Assembly: GCF_037975245.1 (NCBI RefSeq)
Contig: NC_092583.1
Span: forward strand, 16,041,264 to 16,105,263
Direction of reading: 5' to 3'
Length of the DNA stretch: 64,000 bases
Source of the DNA: Apostichopus japonicus
Lineage: Eukaryota > Echinodermata > Holothuroidea > Aspidochirotida > Stichopodidae
Shown here piece after piece: positions 8,640-26,598 of this stretch (position 1 is the stretch's first letter; every line of letters begins with the position of its first letter). Both the position numbers and the translations under genes were made by a program. The notes beneath the pieces are model-generated. The model searched no databases and had not been told where the DNA came from. It was given only the letters and a program-made list of their open reading frames with translations.

Positions 8640-9600
8640 AGCTTGTAAACACGATATCTCAAGAAGGGAAATTATTTTCTGTGGAGGTCAAAGGTCATTT
8701 AGGGTCACCTGTGTCAAATTGTGAAAACGTTGTAAACACAATAGCTCAAGAAATCAAGCTTGGGCAGATCTCATATTTACTGTGTAGAAGTACCAGTATT
8801 GTTTTCTGTGGAGGTCAAAAGTCATTTCGGGTCACCAGGGGTCGAATTGTGAATACATTGTAAACCCGATATCTCAAGAAGGGAAGCATGAGCAGACCTC
8901 ATATTTAAAGTTTAGACGTACCCCATTGAGTAAAACAAGCCTATTGTGTTTGGTGGAGGTCAAAGGTCCTTTGGGGTCACCAGAGGTCAAATTTGGAAAA
9001 CCTTGTAAACGCGATATCTCAAGAAGGGAAGGTCGAACTAATTCATATTTAGTGTGTAGACGTACCACATTGAGTACAGGAAGCCTAATGTTTTAGGTGT
9101 AGGTCAAGGGTCATTTGTGGACAACAGGTCAAATCGTGACAACCTTGTAAACATGCTATTGCAAGAAAGGACATATCTCTTATTTGGTTTTTAGTTGTAC
9201 CATATTAATTTTTAAGGGGCCTATTATTGCTTTTGGTGGAGGTCAAAGGTCATTTGAAGTCAGCAAATGCCAAACATTTACTTCACTCCCCTCTTACCTG
9301 TCTCTCCACACTAACACATCTTCCTAAACATAATATCGTAAGGGAAGCTTGGACAGATCGCATATTTGGTATGTAATTGTACCACATTGAGTACAAGAAG
9401 CCTTAATGTTGATGGCGGACGTCAATGGTCGTTTGAGTTCACCAGGGCTCAGATTGTGAAGCCATGTTTAACACAATATTTCAACAAGGACTGATGTCAA
9501 ATTTAGTATGTTGATGTATCTATCACATTAAATACAAGAAGCTTGTTGTTGAGGTCAATGGTCATTTCAGGACAGCCTGTGTCATTGTGAATTTATTGTT
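8640..9600. repeat. Degenerate tandem repeat with AGGTCA direct repeats
   Basis: About seven diverged units recur with the phrase AAACNCGATATCTCAAGAAG at about 8647, 8733, 8862, 9007, 9150, 9327 and 9468. The dominant spacing is 141-145 bp, with one short and one long interval. Most units also carry a GGAGGTCAAAGGTCATTT block. Perfect AGGTCA-A-AGGTCA occurs at 8685-8697 and 9240-9252, with one-mismatch versions elsewhere. Further GGGTCA or AGGTCA half-sites follow at 8702, 8974 and 8984. Divergence increases toward the right end. Confidence 0.9.
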
Positions 9601-13130: not shown

Positions 13131-13526
13131 CTTTTTTTTGCTACTAGCAATTACCGGCAAAATCCACTAGCATTTAGCCAGTCAATACTGTCATGAAGTG
13201 ATATTATACCCCCCACCCCACCCCACCCCACACCCACACTAAGTTCCTATCAACTCCCGCAAGGCTATTCACCATTTGTACATTTGACCTTCAAGTACCC
13301 CCTTGTTAATTCCCACGGTTCCCGAATAAAGAAATATATTAGAAATTGTTCGGTCCATTTTCAGACGTCTAGTTTTGCCCCTACATACGATAACTCAGCC
13401 GGGTAAAATTTGCCTTTCCTCCATCCGGACGCCCCCGCCCCCCCCCCCGGGCGCCCTCCACCATCTTTGAAACCATGTGCATGTCACTGCAGACACATAA
13501 AGAAGAGAACAGCATTCTATACTTAC

Positions 13527-13910
13527 CCCGAAATGGACGTTAAATCTAAGGGACAATGAGGCATCGTACATATTCAGTGCTTCCTGTAGCCACAGGTAAG
13601 CCTTAAGCTGCAGAGGAAAGTTATCTCTCAGCATAAAGTAAGGAGTAAACATTCTATATGTACTTACCCCGAAATGGACGTTAAATCTAAGGGACAATGA
13701 GGCATCGTACATATTCAGTGCTTCATGTAGCCACAGGTAAGCCTTAAGCTGCAGAGGAAAGTTATCTTTCAGCATAAAGTAAGGAGTAAACTGGTATTCT
13801 ATAAATCGTCTGAACTGCTTTGTGGAAATGTCTCTATGTTCTTCTATTGTCATTGGTCTGCTTGGACGATGGAACAATGGGTCACTTTCCATTTTTTGCC
13901 AAACTTTATA
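13527..13910 (-). CDS. ACOX3: ACOX3-like exon 2 with an internal 141-bp in-frame duplication
   Basis: The acceptor AG is at 13911-13912, followed by YKVWQKMESDPLFHRP and FRRFIEYQF, typical of the ACOX3 N-terminal domain. The following segment, TPYFML to NVHFG, is present twice with a 141-bp period (anchor GCATAAAGTA at 13631 and 13772). Each copy ends at a GTAAGT donor: GGG then GTAAGTA at 13661-13667, and GGG then GTAAGT at 13521-13526. Using the first donor ends the exon at 13668 and gives normal length; using the second adds 47 residues in frame. The copies differ at only a few bases, so the duplication is recent. Confidence 0.8.
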
Positions 13911-20090: not shown

Positions 20091-20156
20091 TTAAACAACT
20101 TCGTATTCATTTTTCACCGACTTCATCAGGCAACAGGCACAGAATATTCCTGTGAT
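20091..20156 (-). CDS. Tetraspanin exon 6: end of TM4 and cytoplasmic tail
   Basis: The acceptor TTTACAG precedes ITGIFCACCLMKSVKNEYEV, one more V and a TAA at 20091-20093. The last residues YEVV fit a YxxPhi endosomal/lysosomal sorting signal at the same place as in CD63. Palmitoylatable cysteines (CACC) sit at the membrane edge. Confidence 0.92.
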   Translation of the reverse strand: MTGIFCACCLMKSVKNEYEVV

Positions 20157-20499
20157 CTGTAAAGAGGAAAAAGCAGAGAAAGAAAATAATTAAAAAAAAA
20201 AAAAATGAATACCCAAATATTTCTACATTGAATATTTTAAGGGTTTCACATCAAATAATCATTAAGTCTTGGAAAGCAGAGAAAGTTTTTCAATCATTTA
20301 AAATGTTTATGTTGCAATGCTGAAAGAAATGTTAGCAATTTGACAGACCAACGTTTGATGGAGATAGGCTGATCCCATTCAACCACATTTATACAACACA
20401 ACCATTTATCTTGAAGCCCAATGATGTGACCCAGGGCTAAAGTGTTTCAACCCAACATTCATTCTGTTTCTGGTTGAAAGACTATAATTTATCATTTTA

Positions 20500-20862
20500 G
20501 GTTTACAGTCTTGTTCAGAGCCAAGGCCTTCTCACACGACTTTACAACTTAACCCTGGTCATTGGTAGCTTGTCACACCTACACACCAAAGTGTGCACAA
20601 TTCAATCAATCTCTCCTGGGGCATCACAGTGCACCACAACCACGTGTCCCCCGGGGGAGTTCCCATAGGATGCAGCCAGAAACCGGCGCACACAACTATA
20701 TTTACAAGTTACCTCGCAAGTCCCCATTTATACACCTGGGTGAAGAGAGGCAATGGAGATAAAGCGCCTTGCCCAAGGACACAACGTAATGATCTGGCCA
20801 GGGCTCGAACCTGTAATTCTTAGATCACAAGTCCACTGCCTTAACCATTTGACCACAATGCA
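20500..20862 (-). repeat. tRNA-derived SINE
   Basis: On the minus strand the head has an A-box-like GTGGTCAAATGGTTAAGGC (complement of about 20843-20861) and a B-box GGTTCGAGCCC (complement of 20801-20811), at tRNA-like spacing. The body (GTGTCCTTGGGCAAGGCGCT and onward) matches the split SINE at 43812-44466 and, over the head and proximal body, the SINE at 25200-25534. The 3' end is approximate. It lies downstream of tetraspanin exon 5, in intron 5. Confidence 0.8.
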
Positions 20863-20968
20863 CTCAACTATCAGAAAAGCCAGACCTGGCCTTCACATTA
20901 TGTCCATCTGTGAGATTGTTCATCTCATTTGGTTGGCATTGTTCGTTGATTATTTGCAGGTGTTGTAA

Positions 20969-22132
20969 CTGCTCTCCACAAAACCGATCACTGTGTAATA
21001 TTATCATCATTTATATCCTCAAGACCAATCATAATGCAGATCTCATCATTCCTTCCAAAAGACTAATCAGTATACAGATATAATCTCTTACCTTTAAATG
21101 ACCGATCACTGCAGATATTATTACCCTATTTATACCTCTACAAGACATATAACTTCAGATATTAATATCCTATCCTTTCATCACTTTAAGTTTACATGTG
21201 TTATTTACTAGCACTAACATCACTCTAAGTTTACATGTGTTACTAGCACTAACATCACTTTAAGTTTACATGTGTTACTAGCACTAACCTCCACAAGACC
21301 TATCACTATAGATATAAAGATCCTATCCTTTCATCACTTTAAGTTTACACGTGTTACTAGCTCTAACATCACTCTACGTTTACATGTGTTACTAGCACTA
21401 ACCTCTACAAGACCGATCACTATAGATATTAATATCCTATCCTTTCATCACTTTAAGTTTACATGTGTTACTAGCACTAACATCACTTTAAGTTTACATG
21501 TGTTACTAGCGCTAACATCACTCTACGTTTACATGTGTTACTAGCTCTAACCTCTACAAGACCGATCACTATAGATATTAATATCCTATCCTTTCATCAC
21601 TTTAAGTTTACATGTGTTACTAGCCCTAACATCACTCTACGTTTACATGTGTTACTAGCGCTAACATCACTCTACGTTTACATGTGTTACTAGCGCTAAC
21701 ATCACTCTACGTTTACATGTGTTACTAGCTCTAACCTCTACAAGACCGATCACTATAGATATTAATATCCTATCCTTTCATCACTTTAAGTTTACATGTG
21801 TTACTAGCACTAACATCACTTTAAGTTTACATGTGTTACTAGCGCTAACATCACTCTACGTTTACATGTGTTACTAGCTCTAACCTCTACAAGACCGATC
21901 ACTATAGATATTAATATCCTATCCTTTCATCACTTTAAGTTTACATGTGTTACTAGCCCTAACATCACTCTACGTTTACATGTGTTACTAGCGCTAACAT
22001 CACTCTACGTTTACATGTGTTACTAGCGCTAACATCACTCTACGTTTACATGTGTTACTAGCACTAACATCACTCTACGTTTACATGTGTTACTAGCGCT
22101 AACATCACTCTACGTTTACATGTGTTACTAAC
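20969..22132. repeat. Exon-derived higher-order minisatellite in tetraspanin intron 5
   Basis: 35-bp monomers (ATCACTCTACGTTTACATGT, then GTTACTAGCGCTAAC) are interspersed with a 44-bp spacer whose starts (CCTCYACAAGACC) fall at 21288, 21402, 21551, 21735, 21884 and finally at the real exon edge, 22132. On the minus strand the spacer reads AGTGATCGGTCTTGTAGAG then GTTAG. That is the last codons of tetraspanin exon 5 with its splice donor, with a silent GTG-to-GTA difference. More degenerate exon-like copies fill 20969-21170; the one at about 21012-21055 matches the exon as far as its TTCCAGAAG. The first monomer next to each spacer consistently has TTTAAG in place of TCTACG. Confidence 0.93.
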
Positions 22133-22216
22133 CTCCACAAGACCGATCACTATGCAGATGATTGTTATCGTCATCATGTTTTCCAGAAGGAGATTTTTCA
22201 ACTCGCCACTACAACC
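22133..22216 (-). CDS. Tetraspanin exon 5: last loop cysteine and TM4
   Basis: After an acceptor ATAATCCAG the exon reads GCSGELKNLLLENMM, then TITIICIVIGLVE, and ends at a GTTAGT donor (22127-22132). It supplies the final GC of the large loop and most of TM4. The donor side is the source of the adjacent minisatellite spacer. Confidence 0.92.
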
Positions 22217-24282: not shown

Positions 24283-24665
24283 ATATATGTTGATACTAGA
24301 TGAGACTAGTGGAACACTAGTAGTTGTAACTCGGAGTTTCACGCGTTATAGCCATCTTCAGACAACTGGTGGCTTCAAGTTATGCTCCATGAATATATAG
24401 GATCCTCGTCGGGATTACCGGGGATTATGCGGTTGTTGGTGTATTGTTCTGCCGGTGTATTCTCTTTTGCGTCCGTTCTGTAGGTGGGTTTGTAAGACTT
24501 TCTTCGGTGTACGGCTGTTGGTGTATTCTCTTTTGCGTCCGTTCTGTTGTTGGGGTTTTTTGCCTTCCTTCGGTGCTCGCTCCTTAGTTGTGTGTGGTTC
24601 TCTTGACGGTGTTTGGTGGTTGGACTACTAGTGTTCCACTAGTCTCATCTAGTATCAACATATAT
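24283..24665. repeat. Inverted repeat with 41-bp arms beside a TA microsatellite
   Basis: 24283-24323 is the perfect complement of 24625-24665 (ATGTTGATACTAGATGAGAC and onward), with about 300 bp between. The interior has a directly repeated GGTGTATTCTCTTTTGCGTC. Just inside the left arm is a minus-strand CTGAAGA...GAAAC pair (24336-24361). It lies in tetraspanin intron 3. The family is uncertain; a Penelope-like remnant is possible. Confidence 0.8.
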
Positions 24666-24678
24666 ATTTTAATATATA

Positions 24679-24837
<159 letters not shown>

Positions 24838-26409: not shown

Positions 26410-26598
26410 CATGAACAGCATGCAATAGTTCTCTCTCAGGGCACCGCAACATCCGAAGAAGCCAGTGACGAAGAAAAATGCACCGATGACAATGAAGGCG
26501 ATGATGACAATGGTTCCCGAGGCACCGGTAAAGTCCTCATATTGGTAGAAATTTGCCAAAAATAAGGACGATATCACAATCAGGAGCAGACCGGACAA
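26410..26598 (-). CDS. Tetraspanin exon 2: end of TM1, small loop, TM2
   Basis: The acceptor TTTCTTTCACAG precedes LSGLLLIVISSLFLANFYQY, the end of TM1 and the small loop. IVIIAFIVIGAFFFVTGFFG and CCGALRENYCMLFM follow. The TM2 ending with GCCGA..EN.CML is a strong tetraspanin signature. The donor is GTAAGA (26404-26409). Confidence 0.95.

Follow-up and report, generated by a model that had tools for sequence, protein, structure and literature searches.

A donor-anchored minisatellite with copies of the exon end in the last intron of a tetraspanin gene of Apostichopus japonicus

The host gene and its last intron

The window, i.e. the whole stretch of 64,000 nucleotides which was analysed (G000:C23:16041264-16105263), carries a gene for a CD63-like tetraspanin on its minus strand. 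The roughly joined protein matched the Tetraspanin family PF00335 of Pfam with an E value of 4.9e-45, and its matches in PDB include tetraspanin-7 and CD63. The C-terminal residues YEVV are presumably akin to the tail of CD63. Exon boundaries were taken from reading of the sequence, which did not reveal the first coding exon. The following parts of the gene and of its last intron are needed here:

end at 26410, minus strand: recognised exon, donor GTAAGA
25139-24969, minus strand: recognised exon, donor GTGAGG
24054-23899, minus strand: recognised exon, donor GTAAAG
22133-22216, minus strand: TM4 exon of 28 codons, phase 0, recognised by translation, acceptor and donor; likely source of the copied tail
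20091-20156, minus strand: last exon, ITGIFCACCLMKSVKNEYEVV and stop, from sequence reading
20483-20866, minus strand: dispersed repeat of about 384 bp, unrelated to the array described below, from genome search

The TM4 exon (22216-22133) encodes GCSGELKNLLLENMMTITIICIVIGLVE and is followed by GTTAGT. The intron which begins there measures 1,976 bp and is the last one of the gene; the number 5 given to it in the initial annotation is provisional, as the search for the 5' exons did not recover them. The dispersed repeat within it has at least 39 genomic copies at 93-97% identity, as judged from the best 40 scored of 3231 first-look candidates. From its look we take it to be a tRNA-derived SINE, and ARAGORN found no tRNA gene in it. 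Further upstream in the gene, a microsatellite (AT)85 occupies 24660-24829 in the intron between the exons 25139-24969 and 24054-23899.

The donor-anchored array

Immediately behind the TM4 exon lies a tandem array, the first base of which is the first base of the splice donor (a slash marks the exon/intron junction throughout):

21180-22132, minus strand: array of 21 units starting with GTTAG, about 950 bp
22104-22132, minus strand: presumed true donor GAG/GTTAGT and first array unit, 29 bp, lacking 6 bp relative to the 35-bp unit

Cutting at every GTTAG yielded a first unit of 29 bp, and of the other twenty all but one have a 35-bp core, the exception having a core of 39 bp. To five of the nineteen units with a 35-bp core a 44-bp exon tail is appended, and the unit with the 39-bp core begins at 21218 and runs into an old exon-tail copy at 21134-21169. 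The array thus begins at the donor of an exon and repeats this donor in register: all 21 units start at what corresponds to the first base of the intron, the real donor being unit one. Tandem Repeats Finder reported periods of 35, 114, 149, 263, and 333 bp, and in the best pair of adjoining 333-bp blocks one of the 333 positions is mismatched.

The genome searched comprised 671.6 Mb in 35 contigs. With up to three mismatches the unit pattern gave at least 21 matches, every one of them in this array, and a reversed control pattern gave none, where such pattern counts may be lower bounds. When 20969-22216 was used as the query, the sequence itself was the sole match returned, and the 46 matches listed for 20157-21178 were itself, 39 copies of the dispersed repeat, one match at 75%, and five copies from the array. 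An origin of the array from a dispersed element was rejected, as all matches returned for the unit pattern with up to three mismatches lay within the array.

The initial annotation had described a minisatellite grown from the end of the exon. For the exon end and its donor, which are indeed duplicated, this is borne out, but the 35-bp unit of the intron head, which forms the bulk of the array, shows no significant similarity to the exon. Its source was sought in ten pairs under two scoring schemes with 300 shuffles each, among which were the exon, the 44-mer, the old copies, and the remaining intron sequence. Of these 20 comparisons the best one, that with the remaining intron sequence, had a score attained in 5 of 300 shuffles and was not counted as a match. 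The exon tail probably came to lie between the 35-bp units by a later duplication spanning the junction.

Copies of the exon end

Two sets of copies of the end of the TM4 exon are found in the intron. The young ones are located within the array, the older ones beyond it:

21885-21928, minus strand: 44-bp exon-tail copy, donor 21884
21736-21779, minus strand: 44-bp exon-tail copy, donor 21735
21552-21595, minus strand: 44-bp exon-tail copy, donor 21551
21403-21446, minus strand: 44-bp exon-tail copy, donor 21402, nine donor positions as in the true donor
21289-21332, minus strand: 44-bp exon-tail copy, donor 21288, nine donor positions as in the true donor, GTG of the exon kept
21134-21169, minus strand: older copy, score 27, 5' half as in the young 44-mers, 3' half diverged
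21087-21123, minus strand: older copy, score 32, holding the highest-scoring donor of the intron (AAG/GTAAGA, 21091)
21054-21079, minus strand: older copy, score 27
21016-21041, minus strand: older copy, score 32
20974-21008, minus strand: older copy, score 35

The recurring 44-bp spacer had been proposed to be the end of the exon followed by its GTTAG donor on the minus strand, with well-kept copies before five donors. All five donors are present, each behind a 44-bp copy, and alignment of the young copies with the exon plus five bases of intron gave scores of 51, 51, 51, 51, and 48, whereas 500 dinucleotide shuffles of the whole intron reached 29 at most. A likeness limited to a few chance bases, which would have spoken against the proposal, can therefore be dismissed, since even the lowest-scoring young copy lies far above the shuffles. 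All young copies end with TTGT[A/G]GAG before the donor. Four of the 44-mers are identical, and the one which ends at 21289 differs from these at 4 of 44 positions. The synonymous GTG/GTA change, described as the sole one, is so in the last 26 columns of these four copies; the copy at 21289 keeps GTG and carries a C to A change instead.

Several older and longer exon-like copies had also been suggested for 20969-21170. Five older copies were found there, and they are not longer, as the exon position at which copies begin is 48-58 in either set. Altogether ten non-overlapping copies, aligned within 20974-21918, cover the exon from position 48-58 to 83-89. The best score in the older segment was 35, and none of 1000 shuffles of the same segment went above 25. 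The two old copies scoring 27 lie, taken singly, inside the range of the whole-intron shuffles (maximum 29) and were accepted because they stand in line with the other copies. Taken by itself, the 5' part of the 44-mer, 24 bases long, is not significantly similar to the exon (147/300 and 51/300 shuffles reach the score in two schemes), and the strong evidence is therefore confined to the last 26 or so columns.

Related tetraspanin loci

Six further tetraspanin regions were fetched, five of which (L044, L045, L049, L048, and L047) were used, while L046 was excluded because its frame runs through the point in question. In all five the homologous block of 84 nt ends at the same codon and is followed by GT, the introns and splicing of these paralogs being deduced from their sequences. 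L045 and L047 have no AG just upstream of the block, which is why the exon to which it belongs is probably longer there. None of the five has a significant exon copy in the next 2 kb: the observed score was reached by 72 (L044), 170 (L045), 129 (L049), 164 (L048), and 180 (L047) of 200 shuffles, and by 0 of 200 for the gene in the window. L045 nevertheless ends with GAG/GTTAGT, too.

In a wider comparison 29 tetraspanin matches, which include L014 and L024 from the host gene and none of which is the host TM4 exon, were screened over about 1.4 kb of each flank minus the nearest 100 bases, in this case without shuffles. Exon copies were found in the flanks of none of the 29. The scores ranged from 18 to 29 save for L016, where a score of 95 stems from a TA microsatellite within the matched stretch. 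By the same measure the TM4 exon reached 41 and a second exon of the window, belonging to the acyl-CoA oxidase-like gene described below, 238. The paralog L044 (G000:C23:17096001-17106000) is a divergent tetraspanin on the same contig, about 1 Mb away. Of 35 aligned columns in its CCG exon 51% are identical, and its family match (L027) contains one TAG.

Direction of copying and origin of the array

Seven copies could be aligned across exon positions 48-60 and are 2-3 nt, in net mostly 3 nt, shorter there than the exon. The TM4 exon measures 84 nt, which is the length of the block in the five paralogs. Since the copies are shorter while the exon keeps the length of its paralogs, the exon appears to be the better ancestor, and copying from exon to array the likelier direction.

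The young 44-mer looks like a chimera, with a 5' half resembling the old copy and a 3' half resembling the exon. In comparison to the old copy 21134-21169 it has 0/25 differences to the left of the motif ATCT and 9/30 to the right (Fisher p 0.0026). In comparison to the exon it has 7/24 differences to the left and 1/26 to the right when counted up to GTTAG (p 0.021), but the latter contrast is not significant when counted past GTTAG (7/24 vs 5/31, p 0.33; first copy). For the fifth copy, at 21289, the two contrasts are weaker (p 0.046 and 0.045). These tests comprise a few dozen columns from one family of near-identical copies, with a split point picked after inspection of the data, and the statistical support for a chimera is moderate. 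We read it as the product of a tandem duplication the ends of which met at ATCT(G).

These observations are probably best explained by passive growth of a donor-anchored intronic minisatellite, in which repeated tandem duplication across the exon/intron junction together with unequal exchange left decoy donors behind. As a first step, some 40 bp, made up of the exon tail and a few bases of the intron including the donor, would have been duplicated early on to give a short array which has decayed to what is now found at 21169-20974; the similarity of these copies was observed, and the order of events is our reconstruction from a single genome. Secondly, a 35-bp unit of the intron head starting at the donor would have multiplied between the exon and the old copies; the array is plainly there, its mode of multiplication is conjectural. 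Thirdly, a further tandem duplication may have fused the 5' half of the nearest old copy to the last 21 or so bases of the exon together with its donor and the intron head, with the junction at the shared ATCT(G), resulting in the chimeric 44-mer. Finally, unequal exchange or slippage would have spread this compound into higher-order repeats of 149 and 333 bp, and these repeats are near-identical. The exon and its first donor would have stayed in use throughout, because only splicing at this site leaves the protein intact. Read in this way the array is a layered record of duplications crossing the junction, beside an exon which itself is still readable.

A modified history, to which we assign a rather low probability, would have exchange working in both directions, so that the last codons of the exon and its donor were in turn overwritten from the array. 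This would account for the last 26 columns of exon and donor being nearly identical to the 44-mer while the part upstream is not, for the intron head beside the exon being a standard array unit save for the 6-bp gap, and for the presence of GTAAG in an old copy where the exon now has GTTAG. One duplication spanning the junction, however, accounts for the same pattern, and the GAG/GTTAGT of L045 occurs in a paralog without exon copies.

Decoy donors

The growth of a minisatellite by duplications across the junction leaves the intron with a series of potential donors. Donors were scored with a frequency table and by pairing with the U1 sequence. The presumed true donor scores 7.0 and ranks third among the 188 GTs of the intron, tied with the donors at 21402 and 21288, which match it over nine positions. 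Donors 21884, 21735, and 21551 differ from it at position +6 and score 5.4. The highest score, 11.0, belongs to donor 21091 (AAG/GTAAGA), located in a decayed old copy about 1 kb downstream, which is also predicted to form the more stable U1 duplex (-9.5 vs -8.4 for the true donor). A GT at 20712, within the dispersed repeat, scores 7.6. The remaining 15 of the 21 array units have GAT/GTTAG and weak donor scores of 1.9-3.5. The ladder of decoy donors which the initial annotation had seen in this intron is hence present on paper, with two rungs equal to the true donor and one old copy above it.

Use of any of the six tail-copy donors tested would add 248-1041 nt to the message and lead to one common stop, 20 codons after the residues VE and 185-978 nt upstream of the next junction. 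Use of the donor at 22103 is predicted to cause a frameshift with a stop within the last exon. Judged by these predictions, the products of the decoys look damaging. Under passive growth they would be by-products and at most rare leaky donors, yielding truncated and probably decayed messages.

The closest precedent appears to be the VNTR in intron 18 of human ABCA7, the first bases of which are the donor GT of exon 18 and the unit of which measures 25 bp (PMC5954066). Like the array described here, it abuts the exon, the GT of its first unit is the real donor, and its units repeat a potential donor. Unlike the tetraspanin array with its two unit types, one of which contains a coding exon end, and its older decayed array, the ABCA7 VNTR has its 25-bp unit. 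Effects on splicing have been shown for ABCA7, and those of the tetraspanin array are hypothetical. In human IFI6 (6-16/G1P3) a minisatellite provides alternative donors (PMC4526556); use of the repeated donors is reported there, and in the tetraspanin array such donors are predicted. This kind of structure seems to be known from a few human genes, and the tetraspanin array adds to it copies of an exon tail, two generations of copies, and a probable chimeric junction. Among the matches listed from the open-licence PMC literature no paper was recognised on this array or on a minisatellite made of an exon tail plus donor.

The decoys could also be functional, in that the ladder of alternative donors produces a truncated form lacking the C-terminal YEVV tail, or messages destined for decay, with the length of the array tuning expression. 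The match of two decoys to the true donor, the higher scores of the old copy, and the common stop behind all six tail-copy donors would suit such a role, and in human ABCA7 the retention of one unit amounts to 2 +/- 1% (PMC5954066). We consider it unlikely, as the true donor precedes all others in the intron, none of the five young copies outscores it, and most units of the array carry weak sites. Recent amplification accounts for how alike the copies are, and their likeness is therefore no sign of selection. Moreover, the roughly 2% retention in ABCA7 was, according to the same paper, independent of VNTR length, and skipping of the following exon 19 rose with length instead (PMC5954066).

A more far-reaching version, which we regard as quite improbable, would make the array a self-renewing supply of decoy donors, in which duplications spanning the junction copy the live exon end again and again, and thereby a length-tunable switch for early-ending transcripts that lose the C-terminal tail. 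A fresher duplication 8 kb away, described below, would fit a process which recurs in the genome. Whatever the role of the decoys, the intron constitutes a natural test of how the spliceosome chooses one donor among near-identical ones, and the main interest of the array is in splice-site choice and in the evolution of repeats.

Age of the intron

Gain of introns by tandem genomic duplication has been described (PMC3443670, PMC4974935), and this literature mentions fission-yeast genes with repeated 24-bp exon segments bearing AGGT. As in these cases, exon sequence with splice signals has been duplicated in tandem here, and the exon end GAG/GT followed by tandem tail copies might suggest that the last intron itself was born by duplication of an AGGT-bearing exon segment, the mechanism being known (PMC3443670, PMC4974935). 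Such a birth is very improbable. The five paralogous blocks, in which the same final codon precedes a GT and no exon copies follow within 2 kb, argue that the array is probably not the trace of a new intron, and all ten copies are found within 20974-21918, none of them near the acceptor at 20157. Unlike in intron gain, the position of the tetraspanin intron seems to predate the duplication, from which no new intron resulted. The least probable reading is an idea of the initial annotation, namely that array copies are spliced in as micro-exons through an acceptor in ATTAATATCTATAG: an AG does precede 17 exon-like bases and a donor in all five young copies, but the pyrimidine fraction before it is 0.625 in one copy (rank 5 among the 156 AGs of the intron) and 0.5 in the other four (ranks 30-33), as compared to 0.94 for the true acceptor, which ranks first. 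An exon of 17 bases would also be very small, with a length not divisible by three, and the proposed acceptor is not supported.

A second junction-spanning duplication in the window

A comparable but fresher structure is located 8 kb from the tetraspanin array:

13513-13803, minus strand: tandem duplication spanning an exon/intron junction, two copies, each with exon end, GTAAGT donor, and intron start

The copies are spaced by 141 bp, i.e. 47 codons, and differ by two substitutions and two 4-base gaps in an alignment of 154 columns. TATAGAAT is found at both edges of the duplication. The reading frame is open across both copies, so that either donor could give a protein, and use of the second one (13526) is predicted to insert 47 residues because the frame runs through both copies. 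The duplicated exon itself had no match in Pfam, NCBIfam, or PDB. The gene was provisionally assigned as acyl-CoA oxidase-like by the neighbouring exon 11808-11521 on the same strand, which matched acyl-CoA oxidases in PDB with an E value of 6.1e-13 and the Pfam family Acyl-CoA_dh_M with an E value of 0.057, the latter falling short of the Pfam cut-off.

This duplication could illustrate how the tetraspanin array looked at its first step. The presence of two such duplications in one window may be due to chance. Taken together, the array and the in-frame duplication of the oxidase-like gene present two ages of apparently the same process within 10 kb. Elsewhere in the window, a degenerate tandem repeat with a period of 128-145 bp occupies 8671-9171.
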